IMG/VR virus record: IMGVR_UViG_3300044630_001354
Coordinates: 1-35,257 of that record
Length of the DNA stretch: 35,257 nt
Strand: one strand, 5' to 3'
Source: a virus
The position numbers were made by a program, and so were the translations under genes. The first letter of the stretch is position 1; the number at the start of each line of letters is the position of its first letter. The notes under the pieces were generated by a model that was not told the origin of the DNA, did not search any database, and saw only the letters and a list, made by a program, of their open reading frames with translations. Positions 7,563-29,541 of the stretch are shown piece after piece.

Positions 7563-7703
7563 ATGGAAGTAAATACACAGGCAATCATTGAAGACTTATT
7601 AGAACAGAATAAGCAACTCACATTGCAATTATCAATTGCTAGAGCAATAGTTAGTCAGCTTCAGGCGCAGGACCAGGCGCAGGGCGAGAAGACCGAGTCT
7701 TAG
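7563..7703 (+). CDS. Small coiled-coil protein, paralogue C
   Basis: The 46-aa product, MEVNTQAIIEDLLEQNKQLT at its start, is clearly homologous to the products at 3211 and 3410. The helix (residues 5-38) is followed by a Gln-rich tail (QLQAQDQAQGEKTES). It follows a GT-B glycosyltransferase as paralogue A does. It is the last plus-strand gene and its final 53 nt overlap, tail to tail, the end of the minus-strand WhiB gene. Probably leaderless. Function unknown. Confidence 0.7.
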   Translation: MEVNTQAIIEDLLEQNKQLTLQLSIARAIVSQLQAQDQAQGEKTES

Positions 7704-8160
7704 TCTTCTTTGCTAGTTTACTAGCGTGATATGCGTTTACCGCATTAGCACTGGTTCTACTTTTCCATTCAAATTCACATTCTTCACAGATAACTACTTT
7801 CATAGTAGTCCACCTTCCGCCATCAGGCGCGTCTCTAACTTCTACACTTAGTTTACTTGGCCTTGCGCCGCAGTATGGGCAGTTTGGGAACCGCTGTCTT
7901 CTAATCTCCTGCCCAGTGTGAGACACCGATAAAGCACGGCGAATTTCAGTTTCATCTTTTCCACCCCACACTCCCCATATTTGCTTATTGTCGAGCGCCC
8001 ACTTAAGACATGTTTTTCTTACTGGGCAACTAAAGCAAAGATTCTTTACTTCGTATTTTTCACTCAGTACATTAGAAAAGAAAAACGGCTTTAAGCGTTT
8101 GTTAGCAGGTTTTCTGCACTCAGCATCGTCGTGCCAGGATAGATCGCCGAACTTAGACAC
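7651..8160 (-). CDS. WhiB-family regulator with C-terminal zinc ribbon
   Basis: The 169-aa product has all four Fe-S cysteines of WhiB proteins (C15, C42, C45, C51) and the GVWGG turn (63-67), followed by a basic segment. WhiB proteins are nitric-oxide and redox-sensitive regulators that bind the host primary sigma factor. Unusually, residues 94-128 add CPYC...CEEC (C94, C97, C125, C128), a zinc ribbon, making the protein longer than the usual 80-130 residues. A Lys/Ala/Pro-rich tail follows. The start is GTG 8160, overlapping the upstream gene by 8 nt; no ATG precedes the first cysteine. It probably redirects host transcription during infection. Confidence 0.88.
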   Translation of the reverse strand: MSKFGDLSWHDDAECRKPANKRLKPFFFSNVLSEKYEVKNLCFSCPVRKTCLKWALDNKQIWGVWGGKDETEIRRALSVSHTGQEIRRQRFPNCPYCGARPSKLSVEVRDAPDGGRWTTMKVVICEECEFEWKSRTSANAVNAYHASKLAKKTKTRSSRPAPGPAPEAD

Positions 8161-8491
8161 TGAAATCGACCCAGGTTACTTCCAAAACCTCGTCTACTTC
8201 GTCACCTTCTCGCGTCTCTCCAAGCTCGTCACAGACTGCATAGTCGATGTCGCCATCTACGACACCGGCAAATCCGTGAGTTACTCGTGCTTTTTCAACA
8301 AATCTAAAACCATCGCCAAGCGTATCAGCAGAACCGTCTCTTTGCAATGCAGAAGCCAGGGCTCTGCCGACAATTTCGTGCTCAATATCGACGTGTCCTA
8401 CAGTGAAAAAGACTGGATCAAAAGATTCAGAACTAAATCCTTTTCCAGTCCATTCAGACCACAGGCACTCTCCAGTTCTTAGGTCTCGCAT
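8153..8491 (-). CDS. Hypothetical 112-aa acidic protein
   Basis: The ORF begins at ATG 8491 and ends 8 nt inside the WhiB start, so the two are co-translated. The product is acidic, especially the C-terminal third (DELGETREGDEVDEVLEV). No motif is recognised. A long open frame also exists on the opposite strand here, but promoter-like sequence upstream and the operon overlap favour the minus strand. It may act with WhiB; this is context only. Confidence 0.6.
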   Translation of the reverse strand: MRDLRTGECLWSEWTGKGFSSESFDPVFFTVGHVDIEHEIVGRALASALQRDGSADTLGDGFRFVEKARVTHGFAGVVDGDIDYAVCDELGETREGDEVDEVLEVTWVDFSV

Positions 8492-8497
8492 GCTATG

Positions 8498-8527
8498 TCA
8501 ATAATACACTGTGTAGGTAGCTCTCAA
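8498..8527 (-). promoter_or_regulatory. Promoter-like TTGAGA/TATTAT before the WhiB operon
   Basis: Read on the minus strand, TTGAGA is followed by about 15 nt and TATTAT, ending near 8501, 9 nt before ATG 8491. This is a short but plausible sigma-70-type pair. Nearby (8530-8605) GAGTGC occurs twice and GGCACT once in a 120-base gap, giving a GCACT-TATG-AGTGC hairpin that could be an operator. Confidence 0.35.
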
Positions 8528-8611
8528 GGCACTTATGAGTGCTTATTGCCAAGTTTATATCTATCACTTTGTATAGTCGTGGAGCGGCTCTGAGTGCCTC
8601 TCACTGGGTTT

Positions 8612-9149: not shown

Positions 9150-9158
9150 CATTATATC
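9150..9158 (-). promoter_or_regulatory. Extended -10 promoter TGATATAAT
   Basis: On the minus strand TGATATAAT lies 25 nt before ATG 9124 within a 61-nt intergenic gap. No good -35 is visible at 17 nt, consistent with an extended -10 promoter. Confidence 0.55.
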
Positions 9159-9185
9159 AAACAATAATGCAACTACTGTAATCAA

Positions 9186-10433
9186 TCACTTTTTGTCTGC
9201 GTACCAGCCCTTGCGAACAACTTGACGACTGAAACCTTTGTCAGTATTTACAAGCCATTCACGGTCGCCAATAAGCTCTCCTTGCGGGCCACTAGGCTCG
9301 CCATTGAGGGCAGCGACAGCTGCGTCACCAATCCATTTTGCTGCCTGAGCAGCAACTGCCTTACCCCAAGTAGCTGACAGTGCCGAATAGCCTTTAGCTT
9401 CAACAAACTCCCAGCTATCTGGCAGCCCCTGAATACGAGCAGCTTCTCTGTGAGTAATTAAACGCGGCTGCGTTGGGTGAATAACATGATCCAATGCGCC
9501 ACCAGTAAGAACATGGCACCAAGAATTTGCAGACCATCGCCCAGGCATTGAGAAACCCATGTAATAGTCTTTCTCAAGAATCTTTTCTTGAAGTGACAAC
9601 CAGTTTTGCGGAAAGTTTCCGCCGTTCTTGTCTACAGCCGCACGAAGAGCTTTATTTATTGGTGTCTGTTGAGGCCAACCGTCAGCTCCAAGAATGTCAA
9701 AAATTTCTTTAATTCTTGTAGCGCCCATAGTCTGTTTTGCCATATGACCATTTACAACTCCACTTTGATTGCGAAGATCTTTAACGTACTTCGAACCTTT
9801 ACCGCTGTATTTTTGGGACTCCCATTGAATAGCGCAATGCTCAAGGTCGCCAATGACATCCATCATTGTTGGCATTTCTGCTGGTGCAATTGCCTCGGCT
9901 CCGAATGGCATACCTTGCTCTACTGCAGTCCAGAAATACCGAGAACGATATGAAAATCCACCAACCTGTAGGTTGTTCATTTTCACATGATAAAGATCAT
10001 ATTTTTTTCCAGATAATGTCTCAAGCATGTCACGATATTTAACCATCGTTTCTCTGCCTTGAGTATACGCTTGCTGCACGCATTCAAATACAACCATTTT
10101 TGGCTTTACCTTAGCCGCATATCGCATGAACGCACGAGTATGCTCGTGAGCAGCAGCGTCTGGCCCTCTATTTGCAGGCCCTGACCACACAGACCAGCCT
10201 GAGCACGGTGGGCAGCCCATAACAACGTCAGCCTCTAATACTGGCCAATCTTCTTCATCATTTGAAAAAAATGCAGACCAGCTATTGCCAAGATGATGTC
10301 TATTTAGCTCAGCAACTGGATTGCCAAAATTCAATGTCCCTGTACGTAGAGTCATTTCCATTCCTGCGTTTACAAAGCCATAGCTCATAAACCCAGCAAG
10401 TCCGTTACAATCAATAAATGTCGGTTTTGACAT
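9186..10433 (-). CDS. DNA (cytosine-5) methyltransferase
   Basis: The 415-aa product carries the C5-methyltransferase motifs in order: a variant motif I (FIDCNGLAGFMSYGF, 6-20) for S-adenosylmethionine binding, motif IV GCPPCSGWS with nucleophile C77, motif VI as FECVQQ (E117; the usual ENV reads ECV), motif VIII FSYRSRYF, a target-recognition region of about 150 residues, then the C-terminal HREAARIQGLPDSWEF and ATWGKAVAAQAA (motifs IX-X). It should be catalytically active. No restriction enzyme adjoins it, so it is an orphan phage enzyme, perhaps protecting against host restriction. Its own promoter (10469-10477) separates it from the glucosyltransferase-like operon. Confidence 0.9.
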   Translation of the reverse strand: MSKPTFIDCNGLAGFMSYGFVNAGMEMTLRTGTLNFGNPVAELNRHHLGNSWSAFFSNDEEDWPVLEADVVMGCPPCSGWSVWSGPANRGPDAAAHEHTRAFMRYAAKVKPKMVVFECVQQAYTQGRETMVKYRDMLETLSGKKYDLYHVKMNNLQVGGFSYRSRYFWTAVEQGMPFGAEAIAPAEMPTMMDVIGDLEHCAIQWESQKYSGKGSKYVKDLRNQSGVVNGHMAKQTMGATRIKEIFDILGADGWPQQTPINKALRAAVDKNGGNFPQNWLSLQEKILEKDYYMGFSMPGRWSANSWCHVLTGGALDHVIHPTQPRLITHREAARIQGLPDSWEFVEAKGYSALSATWGKAVAAQAAKWIGDAAVAALNGEPSGPQGELIGDREWLVNTDKGFSRQVVRKGWYADKK

Positions 10434-10468: not shown

Positions 10469-10477
10469 ACTGTATCA
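10469..10477 (-). promoter_or_regulatory. Extended -10 promoter TGATACAGT
   Basis: On the minus strand TGATACAGT overlaps the end of the upstream gene and lies 35 nt before the methyltransferase ATG (10433). It matches the recurrent TGATAYART word of this phage. Confidence 0.5.
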
Positions 10478-20966: not shown

Positions 20967-21145
20967 TCGTCTTCTTCTGGTTGATTTATCATTGCGTCTG
21001 ATATAGTCCCTGTAAGAATTTTAGCAATGAGTTCTATAGAGTCTCTTCTAGAAAAACCAGCTTCTTTTAGAGTTACGTACAATTCATGCATAGAAACTGC
21101 TGCAGCTTTTAGCGGAGACTGCTCGTCAAAATCAAAATTACTCAT
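20963..21145 (-). CDS. Hypothetical 60-aa protein
   Basis: ATG 21145 with AAGGA about 10 nt upstream; it overlaps the previous gene by 8 nt and the next by ATGA. Two predicted helices (LKAAAVSMHELYVTLKEAG, RRDSIELIAKILTGTI) between acidic ends. No recognised family. The genes on both sides act on pyrimidine nucleotides, so a small regulator or partner is possible. Confidence 0.7.
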   Translation of the reverse strand: MSNFDFDEQSPLKAAAVSMHELYVTLKEAGFSRRDSIELIAKILTGTISDAMINQPEEDE

Positions 21146-26851: not shown

Positions 26852-28063
26852 CTACCCGATCCACCCGGATCTGTAGTACACTTTGAGAGAAGCTGTAGCA
26901 TTAGCTGCGCCTTCGTCAATAAACTTAATTATGTTTGCGCCAGGCTGAAGAGTAACCCAGTCCGTAAGAGTATCAATGTATGTTCGTGCGCCAAACGTAG
27001 ACCCATTTAGACCGACCTCCCGCTCGTGCGTATCAATTTCCAAATAGTCAGCGTCGCGAGTCACTGTGCCCGAGCTTGCTTGAGACACCACGGTAGTTGC
27101 AGTAAGAGCATAGCGAATTTTATTTGTGCCAGCGTCTACATCTGTCAGTACATGCAAACCGTTGAACGTAGAATCTACGCCAGCGACAGTGACTGTATCG
27201 CCTTCTACAAGATTGCCGACTGAAGATACTGTAAGAATGGCTTCATTAGACGTCAGCTCTTTATTTGTCACTGTCAGAACTTCTGATGCACGAAGAGTAC
27301 CTGTAATTGTCAGTACTTCACCAGTAGTTTCATTAATTACAGTGGTGTCACCTACTGTAGGTCCAGTAACTTCCAAAAACACAGGAACAGAAATATTACC
27401 TAAGTTAGTAATGGACTCTTGGCCGTCTTGCGTTGTCGCAGCGTTTTTGCAAGGTATAGTCACAAGGCCATAGCCGTCTGGGTCAGAGTCGTCCCACGAG
27501 TATTTAATCGGATCGGCAGCTCGTAAACCAATTGAAAAATCTATGCGACCACGCGCAGTAGTACTTGTAATACTTGGCCGACCGCTTAGACGAACGTACG
27601 CTGCTCGAGTAGGATTCTCCATAGTCTTTAACCATGCCCCGGTGTACACTAAACTCGTTGCCTCGATAAGAGTGTTACGTGCGGCTGGCGAAAGACTCGG
27701 GTCAGGCGAAAGAATAGAGCCTGTAAGAGTTATTTGACGAGCCTGCCACCGCCCACGAGCATCGTATGAACCATCACGCCAGCCTCGAGTTACATCTGGG
27801 ATGTCTGGATCTGGGTGAACCCACCAACCTTCAATGTCTGTGCATACCCAGATAACGTTATTTGCATCAATAGTGTTGAAAACTAAGCTACCAAGAATAA
27901 CGTCCGACTGAAGCTTCATGCCGGAAAAGACTGGCGGCGGAAGAGGAATTAAAGTTCTATCGACAGCTGTTGTTTCAATGCCTTGACTTGGCCCGTCATT
28001 GTATGCGTATGAGCCGTATTCGCCTTCACCATAAAATGTAATTGGAGTGTAAAACATACTCAT
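26852..28063 (-). CDS. Dit-like distal tail protein
   Basis: The 403-aa product has the distal tail protein layout: an N-terminal hexamer-forming domain with WVCTDIEGWWVHPDPDIPD and GRWQARQITLTGSILSPDP (72-123), IDFSIGLRAADPIKYSW (174-190), and a C-terminal galectin-like half ending ANIIKFIDEG...LKVYYRSGWIG. An extra module (about 266-335: LTSNEAILTVSSVGNLVEG, VDSTFNGLHVL) is inserted in the C-terminal half. Dit rings link tail tube and hub. ATGA overlap with the adhesin upstream; ATG 28057 is a minor alternative start. Confidence 0.8.
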   Translation of the reverse strand: MSMFYTPITFYGEGEYGSYAYNDGPSQGIETTAVDRTLIPLPPPVFSGMKLQSDVILGSLVFNTIDANNVIWVCTDIEGWWVHPDPDIPDVTRGWRDGSYDARGRWQARQITLTGSILSPDPSLSPAARNTLIEATSLVYTGAWLKTMENPTRAAYVRLSGRPSITSTTARGRIDFSIGLRAADPIKYSWDDSDPDGYGLVTIPCKNAATTQDGQESITNLGNISVPVFLEVTGPTVGDTTVINETTGEVLTITGTLRASEVLTVTNKELTSNEAILTVSSVGNLVEGDTVTVAGVDSTFNGLHVLTDVDAGTNKIRYALTATTVVSQASSGTVTRDADYLEIDTHEREVGLNGSTFGARTYIDTLTDWVTLQPGANIIKFIDEGAANATASLKVYYRSGWIG

Positions 28064-29541
28064 TCGCTAATCCCGTTTACTACAGCAGATGAAGCGTCAG
28101 AGTACGGCCCGCTGCCGATAACGTTAGTTGCGAGCACACGGAAAATGTAACTAGTGCCGTTAGCAGTTAGACCAGACGCCACTACAGATGTAGAATTGTT
28201 CAAGTTTAAGAAAACAACACCAGGTGCATTTACAATGCCCCACAACGTGAAGTCTCCACCAACAACAATGTCGCCGTCAGACTGAAGTGCAAAACACTCA
28301 ACGTAACCATTTGGCGTATTAGTATCTGTAGTAAACGTAGTATCTCTAGTGCCGTCAGAGTTTAGGCGAACAATGCAATCTACTAATACACCGTTCCAAT
28401 AAGCAAACTCACCACCAACAAGTATTTTACCATCAGACTGGACTGTTGCTACGTTGATAGGCAAGCCGTCAGAGCCTGTACCAACGTTTGTCGTAAAAGC
28501 TGTGTCTCTAGTGCCGTTAGAATTGAGGCGAACAATGGCTCCAACATTTACTCCGTTCCAATTGCCAAAATCGCCACATACGAGAATTTTGTCATCAGAC
28601 TGCACTGCTACAGAATAAACGGAAGGGGCAACTGCGCCTGCTCCAGTGTTTGTAGTAAAAGTTGTATCCCGAGAGCCGTTAGTGTTCAAACGAACGATGC
28701 CTCTTACAGTTGCTATAACTCCCCAAGTAGTAAAAAGTCCGCCCACAATAATTTTGCCGTCAGATTGAATTGCTATTGTATTAATGCTGCTATCGCCGCC
28801 TCCTGCAACATTAAAGGTAAAATCAACCTCTCTTGTACCGTCAGAACTTAGTCTAACCATACGGCCCACCATTGCACCGTTCCAAGTAGTAAACGAACCA
28901 GCTACAATAATTTTACCGTCAGATTGAATTGCTACTGCAAAAACAGAGCCATTAGCACCAGTACCAGTATTTGTTGTAAAAGTAGTATCTCTAGTGCCGT
29001 CTGAGTTTAAGCGCACGATACGGTTTACTGTTGTACCGTTCCAAGTGGTGAACTGGCCTCCTACAACTATTTTACCATCAGATTGAATTGCTATAGAAGT
29101 GACAACTTGCTGAGCGGCAGTACCGACGTTTGTAGTAAACGCAGTATCTCTTGTACCGTCAGAGTTTAAACGAACAATACGGTTTACTGTTGTACCGTTC
29201 CAAGTGGTGAACGAGCCGCCTACAATGATTTTTTTATCAGACTGTGTCGCTACTGCATTGACGGCGCTGCCAGCACCAGTACCGATGTTTGTTGAAAAAA
29301 CAGTATCTGCGCCGCTTGCTGGCTTTGAGTACGTAGACCATGTAGAGCCACTATTAGTAGAGTACTGAATTGTGTAATCTGTAATAGCGCTGCCACCGTT
29401 GCTTACTGGGGCATTCCACGAAACAGGCATATCATAGTTAGCGCCGTTAGCCACTGACACAGCCGCGACGTTTAGAGGCTTGCCTGGGCCACCAGGACCG
29501 CCGCCACTACTAGACGCAAGACCAACAAAACCACGAGTCAT
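28060..29541 (-). CDS. DUF5122 seven-repeat propeller inside a split FN3 domain
   Basis: The 493-aa product begins with a Gly-rich linker and half an FN3 domain (PGKPLNVAAV, GGSAITDYTIQYSTNSGSTW, to about residue 75). Next come seven delta-60/DUF5122 repeats, each with an (A)xQSDGKIIVGG core followed by FTTWNGTTVNRIVRLNSDG and RDTTFTTN. The protein closes with the missing FN3 strands (SGLTANGTSYIFRVLATN, SGPYSDASSAV). The repeats thus sit in a loop of one FN3 domain. Seven repeats suggest a seven-bladed propeller. Virion adhesin role is inferred from its place between tape measure and Dit. ATGA overlap with the preceding gene. Confidence 0.8.
   Translation of the reverse strand: MTRGFVGLASSSGGGPGGPGKPLNVAAVSVANGANYDMPVSWNAPVSNGGSAITDYTIQYSTNSGSTWSTYSKPASGADTVFSTNIGTGAGSAVNAVATQSDKKIIVGGSFTTWNGTTVNRIVRLNSDGTRDTAFTTNVGTAAQQVVTSIAIQSDGKIVVGGQFTTWNGTTVNRIVRLNSDGTRDTTFTTNTGTGANGSVFAVAIQSDGKIIVAGSFTTWNGAMVGRMVRLSSDGTREVDFTFNVAGGGDSSINTIAIQSDGKIIVGGLFTTWGVIATVRGIVRLNTNGSRDTTFTTNTGAGAVAPSVYSVAVQSDDKILVCGDFGNWNGVNVGAIVRLNSNGTRDTAFTTNVGTGSDGLPINVATVQSDGKILVGGEFAYWNGVLVDCIVRLNSDGTRDTTFTTDTNTPNGYVECFALQSDGDIVVGGDFTLWGIVNAPGVVFLNLNNSTSVVASGLTANGTSYIFRVLATNVIGSGPYSDASSAVVNGISE

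Follow-up and report, generated by a model that had tools for sequence, protein, structure and literature searches.

The gene encoding the WhiB-zinc ribbon protein lies in a virus record of 35,257 bases, analysed over its whole length and referred to here as the window, whose genes include those for a tape measure protein, a DNA polymerase and a C5 methyltransferase (9186-10433). The coding sequence occupies 7651-8160 on the minus strand, begins with a GTG start and encodes 169 amino acids. Residues 9-76 (7933-8136, minus strand) constitute a WhiB domain, which was matched by Pfam Whib (PF02467) with an E value of 7e-16 and 58.9 bits against a curated cut-off of 23.6. The domain contains C15, C42, C45 and C51 in the spacing C-x26-C-x2-C-x5-C, a GVWGG turn at 63-67, and the aromatic residues F27, F28 and W65. 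It is followed by RRALSVSHTGQEIRRQRFPN and a C4 zinc ribbon (residues 94-128; 7777-7881, minus strand) with the knuckles CPYC (94-97) and CEEC (125-128). A brief conserved segment (FEWKSRTSANAV) comes next, and then a lysine-rich tail that opens with a predicted helix (residues 138-157; 7690-7749, minus strand). C97 and C125 are separated by 27 residues. The original prediction of a complete WhiB domain followed by CPYC and CEEC 27 residues apart was confirmed by the ORF, the Pfam match and the cysteine positions. The AT-hook RGRP, a trait of the WhiB7/WblC class, is absent from the 169-residue translation.

A 46-residue ORF on the plus strand (7563-7703) covers the final 53 nt of the WhiB gene, the region encoding its Pro/Ala-rich tail; in phage DSL-LC01 an annotated glycosyltransferase gene overlaps the same end. 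Elsewhere in the window, 6-1079 and 28060-29541 encode proteins composed of short repeats (for example GGSFTTWNGTTVNRIVRLNSDGTRD) that are possibly propeller-like tail or fibre proteins.

Directly upstream of the WhiB gene lies an orphan gene, which we designated the partner gene (8153-8491, minus strand). It encodes 112 amino acids and overlaps the start of the WhiB gene by 8 nt. In relatives the partner stop codon falls 1-17 nt inside the WhiB ORF, except in two distinct sequences (L043 and L046), which have gaps of 59 or 40 nt instead. Searches of Pfam and of PDB sequences gave no useful match to the partner, and PHROGs gave a single match (E 0.058, 1 of 10 members). A putative -10 element of the two-gene operon, TATTAT, is located at 8501-8506 (minus strand), 9 nt before the partner ATG; relatives most often have TACAAT. 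The upstream region (8492-8530 in the window, and its counterparts in relatives) contains a conserved ACARKA-TACAAT-like block. In 24 of the 36 clusters compared, the end of TACAAT or of a variant is separated from the start codon by 8-10 nt, and this spacing suggests that the message is nearly leaderless; some of the 36 have a misplaced start or a doubtful element.

The distribution of the fusion was assessed by scanning viral and cellular sequence collections. A first IMG/VR scan with a single sequence recovered 50 relatives. Because the earlier queries contained the ribbon, a scan with the WhiB half alone was added, and it yielded 418 confirmed relatives. Among the best 80 of these, 79 possess the ribbon and the other is truncated by a contig end. 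This result is informative for close homologues only, since one of the scan's two peptide patterns extends into the linker and fused proteins supplied the profile. The converse scan, with the ribbon alone, yielded 555 confirmed relatives, of which the best 80 comprise 79 with a WhiB domain and one that starts at a contig edge; many contigs are shared between the IMG/VR scans. Among INPHARED records, 602 match the WhiB half, and tblastn found the ribbon in eight: DSL-LC01 and seven Microbacterium phage records (one with its accession masked, and one phage entered twice). One INPHARED ribbon search also lists a chance faecal match. Four Arthrobacter records match across both halves in a divergent form, and the two that were read (L003 and L059) have a shorter ribbon loop; profile comparison by hhalign showed one of these Arthrobacter ribbons to be related to the family, with a probability of 90 and an E value of 1.6e-6. 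The same fusion, which it had been proposed to seek in other actinophages, is present in IMG/VR relatives, in DSL-LC01 and in Microbacterium phages, and in divergent form in Arthrobacter records.

Of the 36 and 27 pattern matches from two scans of GTDB genomes, none was confirmed; the scans used few peptide patterns, which distant cellular relatives could escape. A cellular origin of the fusion was set aside on the zero confirmed relatives in these two pattern-based scans. A plasmid search with the ribbon part only found nothing. Within the searches made, the WhiB-zinc ribbon fusion was found in viruses only. Ten large fusion-bearing records carry one to three WhiB genes each, with more than one in 6 of 10, and the seven Microbacterium and Arthrobacter records that were searched carry one each. 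Among the papers listed on phage WhiB and zinc ribbons or fingers, and on Microbacterium phages, no title or abstract opening describes the fusion. The words zinc and cysteine are absent from the available text of a phage WhiB survey (PMC8612146), and the accessible part of the DSL-LC01 paper mentions WhiB proteins of that phage without mentioning zinc.

The partner gene accompanies the fusion throughout these collections. In the scan with the WhiB half, the partner adjoins the WhiB gene in 79 of the best 80 loci among 418, and the other starts at a contig end. A separate IMG/VR scan with the partner as query gave 429 loci; among the best 80, the WhiB gene is adjacent in 73, and the other seven contigs end no more than 160 nt past the partner. 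Of these 73 loci, 70 match the ribbon pattern, two are cut, and one (L345) has the ribbon with an extra cysteine. The INPHARED records that match the window partner are the same eight as the ribbon records, DSL-LC01 and the Microbacterium phages. These results show close linkage of the partner and WhiB-ribbon genes, a two-gene unit with the partner first. In the two Arthrobacter phages read, a small ORF precedes the WhiB gene but has no detectable kinship to the partner family. A second WhiB gene, without a ribbon, is located upstream of the partner in L043 (3205-3483), L046 (5042-5326), L092 (4227-4601) and L118 (4264-4602), and directly precedes the partner in the last two.

Conservation was examined in an alignment of 33 proteins including that of the window, assembled from ORFs of IMG/VR relatives and named phages after identical and contig-cut rows were dropped and outgroup WhiB proteins (L060-L064) were excluded. 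All eight cysteines, four in the WhiB domain and four in the ribbon, are unchanged across all 33 of these complete, non-identical proteins, which indicates that the ribbon is more than a chance arrangement. Several other ribbon residues are nearly invariant: R116 (32 of 33), W117 (30), W132 (33), R135 (33), S137 (32) and N139 (33). In ten pairwise comparisons most synonymous sites differ and there are few non-synonymous changes in both halves; the ribbons of the window and L004, for example, differ at 32 of 44 synonymous sites and at 4 of 160 non-synonymous ones. At the sequence level, these comparisons show purifying selection on the WhiB half and the ribbon half alike. In 27 of 32 relatives the ribbon part resembles that of the window as closely as the WhiB half does, or more closely. 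The mean net charge, with related rows unweighted, is +4.1 for the linker and ribbon (window, +2) and +4.2 for the lysine-rich tail (window, +4). In the Microbacterium branch the linker and ribbon carry little net charge (-2 to +3), and DNA binding by this part is accordingly not favoured there.

A full AlphaFold model built from 22 aligned sequences predicted the WhiB helices, strands at 104-110, 119-125 and 131-133, and the helix at 138-157. Confidence was moderate, with a mean pLDDT of 75 (58-68 in the other four models) and a pTM of 0.60; residues 137-141 fell below 50 and the loop block 111-120 scored 69. A model of the ribbon alone repeated the same elements, with a mean pLDDT of 78.6 and ten-residue blocks over 97-146 at 80-91. 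The models thus predict a three-stranded sheet that carries both CxxC knuckles, and they support a folded C4 ribbon fused to the WhiB domain. The proposal of an appended ribbon is supported, as the ribbon is retained in 79 of the best 80 homologues from the scan with the WhiB half, the other being contig-cut, and is predicted to be mostly ordered.

In a Foldseek search of the PDB, the best matches to the full model were WhiB1, WhiB, WhiB7 and WhiB3 in complexes with sigma-A or RNA polymerase, with a best E value of 1.2e-3. A fold search of viral models with the full model placed a 142-residue protein at the top (E 6.7e-9, 31% over 114 columns), followed by viral WhiB proteins. The ribbon alone gave no significant Foldseek match, the best (E 0.095) being to another fold, and this is not evidence of a new fold. 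The ribbon alone also gave weak structural matches to the transcription-type ribbons of Rpb9, RPA12, TFIIS and NrdR, which had Z scores of 3.0-3.5 and were tied with chemokines and other unrelated small folds. In profile libraries the window ribbon resembles those of Lar, VdcD, FdhE and TFIIS, all under curated cut-offs. The NCBIfam model with the best E value across 17 relatives is VdcD, a small decarboxylase subunit (2.1e-6), and the best PDB sequence match is ShdD, a protein of the same kind (E 0.09). The Lar model TIGR03655 matches the window protein with an E value of 1.6e-4 and 21.9 bits against a cut-off of 39.6, and Pfam Lar (PF14354) with 13.8 bits against 28.6; at E values up to 1, these models match 14 and 13 of 17 relatives, respectively. 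Assignment of the ribbon to a known named family was rejected, as Pfam, NCBIfam and PHROGs gave only sub-threshold or non-specific ribbon matches for the window protein.

In WhiB3, alanine substitution of F31, F32 or W76 abolishes binding to region 4 of sigma-A (PMC10245118). By alignment, the equivalents in the window protein are F27, F28 and W65. Among the 33 relatives, W9 is kept in 32 and F27 in all; position 28 is F in 27, Y in two and H in four, and position 65 is W in 28 and R in five. The exceptions include the Microbacterium phages (L002 and L055-L058), which have R at position 65 in 5 of 5 and H at position 28 in 4 of 5, and in which the turn reads GTRGG or GTRAG, not GVWGG. Identity of the Microbacterium proteins to the window protein is 49-56% in the ribbon part versus 35-45% in the WhiB half. 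Because this branch keeps the ribbon and degrades the sigma contacts, ribbon and sigma contact appear to be separable functions. The original prediction that the ribbon could replace the contacts of the host WhiB is not supported for the window protein, in which F27, F28 and W65 are all kept and an additional contact is the better fit; only for the Microbacterium branch is replacement plausible. A phage-encoded sigma factor was considered as an explanation for that branch. A match to Sigma70_r4 over 21-25 of 50 positions was found in 5 of 5 Microbacterium phages (above the cut-off in two), 0 of 2 Arthrobacter phages and 1 of 6 freshwater records, and Sigma70_r2 in 0 of 13 phage records; this candidate was rejected as too weak.

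The sequence TGATAYART, named beforehand as the promoter to examine, occurs at six sites in the window versus 1.34 expected: at 9151, 10469, 18131 and 23008 on the minus strand and at 20999 and 24357 on the plus strand. Four of these sites begin 35-44 nt upstream of ORF starts and two precede no ORF. One extended -10 element, TGATATAAT (9151-9159, minus strand), lies upstream of a pyrimidine dimer glycosylase gene and is at most a candidate WhiB target; another, TGATACAGT (10469-10477, minus strand), lies upstream of the C5 methyltransferase gene. For the window and related loci, TGNTAYART was counted 5-60 nt upstream of a mechanically defined ORF set that includes false ORFs, giving 27 non-redundant sites versus 0, 4 and 2 in three control windows. 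The excess in the window and the enrichment upstream of ORFs identify TGATAYART as a genuine promoter-like element of these phages. Neither a -35 nor any other clear element was found between -60 and -1 in 28 non-redundant sites, many of which represent the same orthologous promoter; no position exceeded about 0.42 bits (A at -37 and T at -13 were highest). A box for the ribbon or the WhiB domain upstream of the extended -10 was rejected on the same alignment. Mycobacterial promoters, too, commonly have a weak -35 (PMC10245118), so a missing -35 does not single out a WhiB-dependent promoter class.

Actinobacterial viruses, many of them from freshwater, probably use the WhiB-ribbon protein and its companion gene to steer host RNA polymerase to viral genes. 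A phage WhiB survey leaves the function of these proteins open and reports that the TM4 WhiB represses host whiB2 (PMC8612146), so that repression instead of redirection is possible for a phage WhiB. Our best explanation, which we hold with roughly even confidence, is a phage-borne Wbl factor that would bind host sigma-A while its ribbon and basic helix make additional contacts with promoter or polymerase, the orphan protein serving as helper. The factor would be made as the product of the second gene in the two-gene unit, the first encoding the small orphan protein. Its [4Fe-4S] WhiB domain would dock on region 4 of the host main sigma factor via F27, F28 and W65, and the linker, ribbon and basic helix could from there contact the upstream DNA of the promoter or an adjacent surface of the polymerase. 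The holoenzyme would thereby be biased towards phage promoters. The orphan partner probably acts with the WhiB-ribbon protein in the same step. The proposed sigma docking rests on the conserved contact residues, and the proposed promoter or polymerase contacts rest on the architecture and on analogy with the AT-hook of WhiB7.

Zinc ribbons often bind protein rather than DNA. The main rival, which we regard as a tentative possibility, is that the ribbon is a protein-binding module that holds the orphan partner, or another polymerase subunit, beside a sigma-docked WhiB domain. The partner is tied to the fusion in a way that fits such a module (the same eight INPHARED records, all uncut IMG/VR loci counted, and usually overlapping ends), the ribbons of VdcD and ShdD gave the best NCBIfam and PDB sequence matches, and the near-neutral linker and ribbon of the Microbacterium branch point in the same direction. 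The two Arthrobacter phages read, however, have the ribbon behind an ORF that is not detectably of the partner family.

A more elaborate scheme, which we consider unlikely, would make the orphan protein and the WhiB-ribbon protein a two-part device for sigma appropriation that follows the logic of AsiA and MotA. The WhiB domain on region 4 of sigma-A would weaken recognition of the -35, and the ribbon and partner would place the polymerase on extended -10 promoters that lack a clear -35; the Microbacterium version would have shed the contact with host sigma and would run on just the ribbon and partner. Quite unlikely, and marginally behind that scheme, is a ribbon that is only a tail for stabilising the fold or for dimerisation, without a target of its own. 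Moderate model confidence and the failure to find a target site are consistent with such a tail, but near-invariant non-cysteine residues and retention of the ribbon where the sigma contacts are lost argue for a specific job. It is highly improbable that the WhiB domain carries the ribbon as a restriction-alleviation module of the Lar type: the TIGR03655 and Pfam Lar matches and the neighbouring C5 methyltransferase gene would suit such a role, but the window scores lie under the curated cut-offs and the VdcD and FdhE ribbons match the relatives about equally or better.

WhiB is described as the most abundant regulator class of actinobacteriophages (PMC8612146) and serves as a marker gene of freshwater actinophages (PMC6802176, PMC10914622). 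Among host proteins, the available text of a 2018 family review recognises a DNA-binding motif in WhiB7 only (PMC6282962), and an Arg-rich motif of WhiB3 was reported later (PMC10245118). The ribbon described here is a C-terminal module of another kind. Hundreds of contigs from viruses match it (418 and 555 confirmed relatives in the scans with the WhiB half and with the ribbon, the best 80 being inspected in either case); it is linked to an orphan partner, and it makes the question of how phage WhiB proteins find their targets directly testable. The Microbacterium branch, with the ribbon but without the sigma contacts, provides a natural separation of the two functions.

The window protein was compared with 16 other phage WhiB proteins from 15 records, hand-picked from two match lists. 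Eleven have tails without cysteine, one (Bromden gp79) has a single cysteine, and four have a different C-terminal cysteine module: MooMoo (L061), SuperGrey (L064), JackieB (L062) and mu1/6 (L407). The frequency of such modules is not to be trusted from this sample, because three of the four sit among five proteins from the top of a list, where alignments reach the tail, and the spread list gave 1 of 11. The expectation that WhiB proteins mostly stop a short way past their basic segment holds in part: in this biased sample 11 of 16 tails are free of cysteine and 4 of 16 have other modules. Like the window protein, these four are phage-encoded WhiB proteins with a C-terminal cysteine module; the modules differ from the window ribbon in spacing and share no evident sequence with it. 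Since the modules differ, phage WhiB proteins may gain metal modules repeatedly, and the addition of a cysteine module behind the WhiB domain apparently happened several times in phages. Among the proteins compared, the exact design of the window ribbon was seen only in the window family, with a divergent form in Arthrobacter phages. The TM4 WhiB, known here from the literature alone, is phage-encoded as is the window protein.

The ribbons of Lar and VdcD share the CPxC and a second CxxC knuckle with the window ribbon and give weak profile matches under curated cut-offs, but they are described as small proteins on their own and not as WhiB fusions. Those of Rpb9, RPA12, TFIIS and NrdR have a like topology with two cysteine knuckles, the resemblance to the window ribbon being structural and weak. 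AsiA and MotA of phage T4 are small proteins that work on sigma region 4, with extended -10 promoters lacking a clear -35. No homology is known between AsiA or MotA and the WhiB-ribbon protein or its partner; the likeness lies in the proposed logic, and the role here is a proposal. The closest parallel in architecture is WhiB7/WblC, of class V of the Wbl proteins, which has the four-cysteine WhiB domain, the G[V/I]WGG turn, the aromatic residues for sigma-A region 4 and a further module at the C terminus, which in WhiB7 is an AT-hook that binds DNA (PMC6282962). The window protein instead adds a C4 zinc ribbon and a helix, is viral only in these searches, and is linked to a partner gene.
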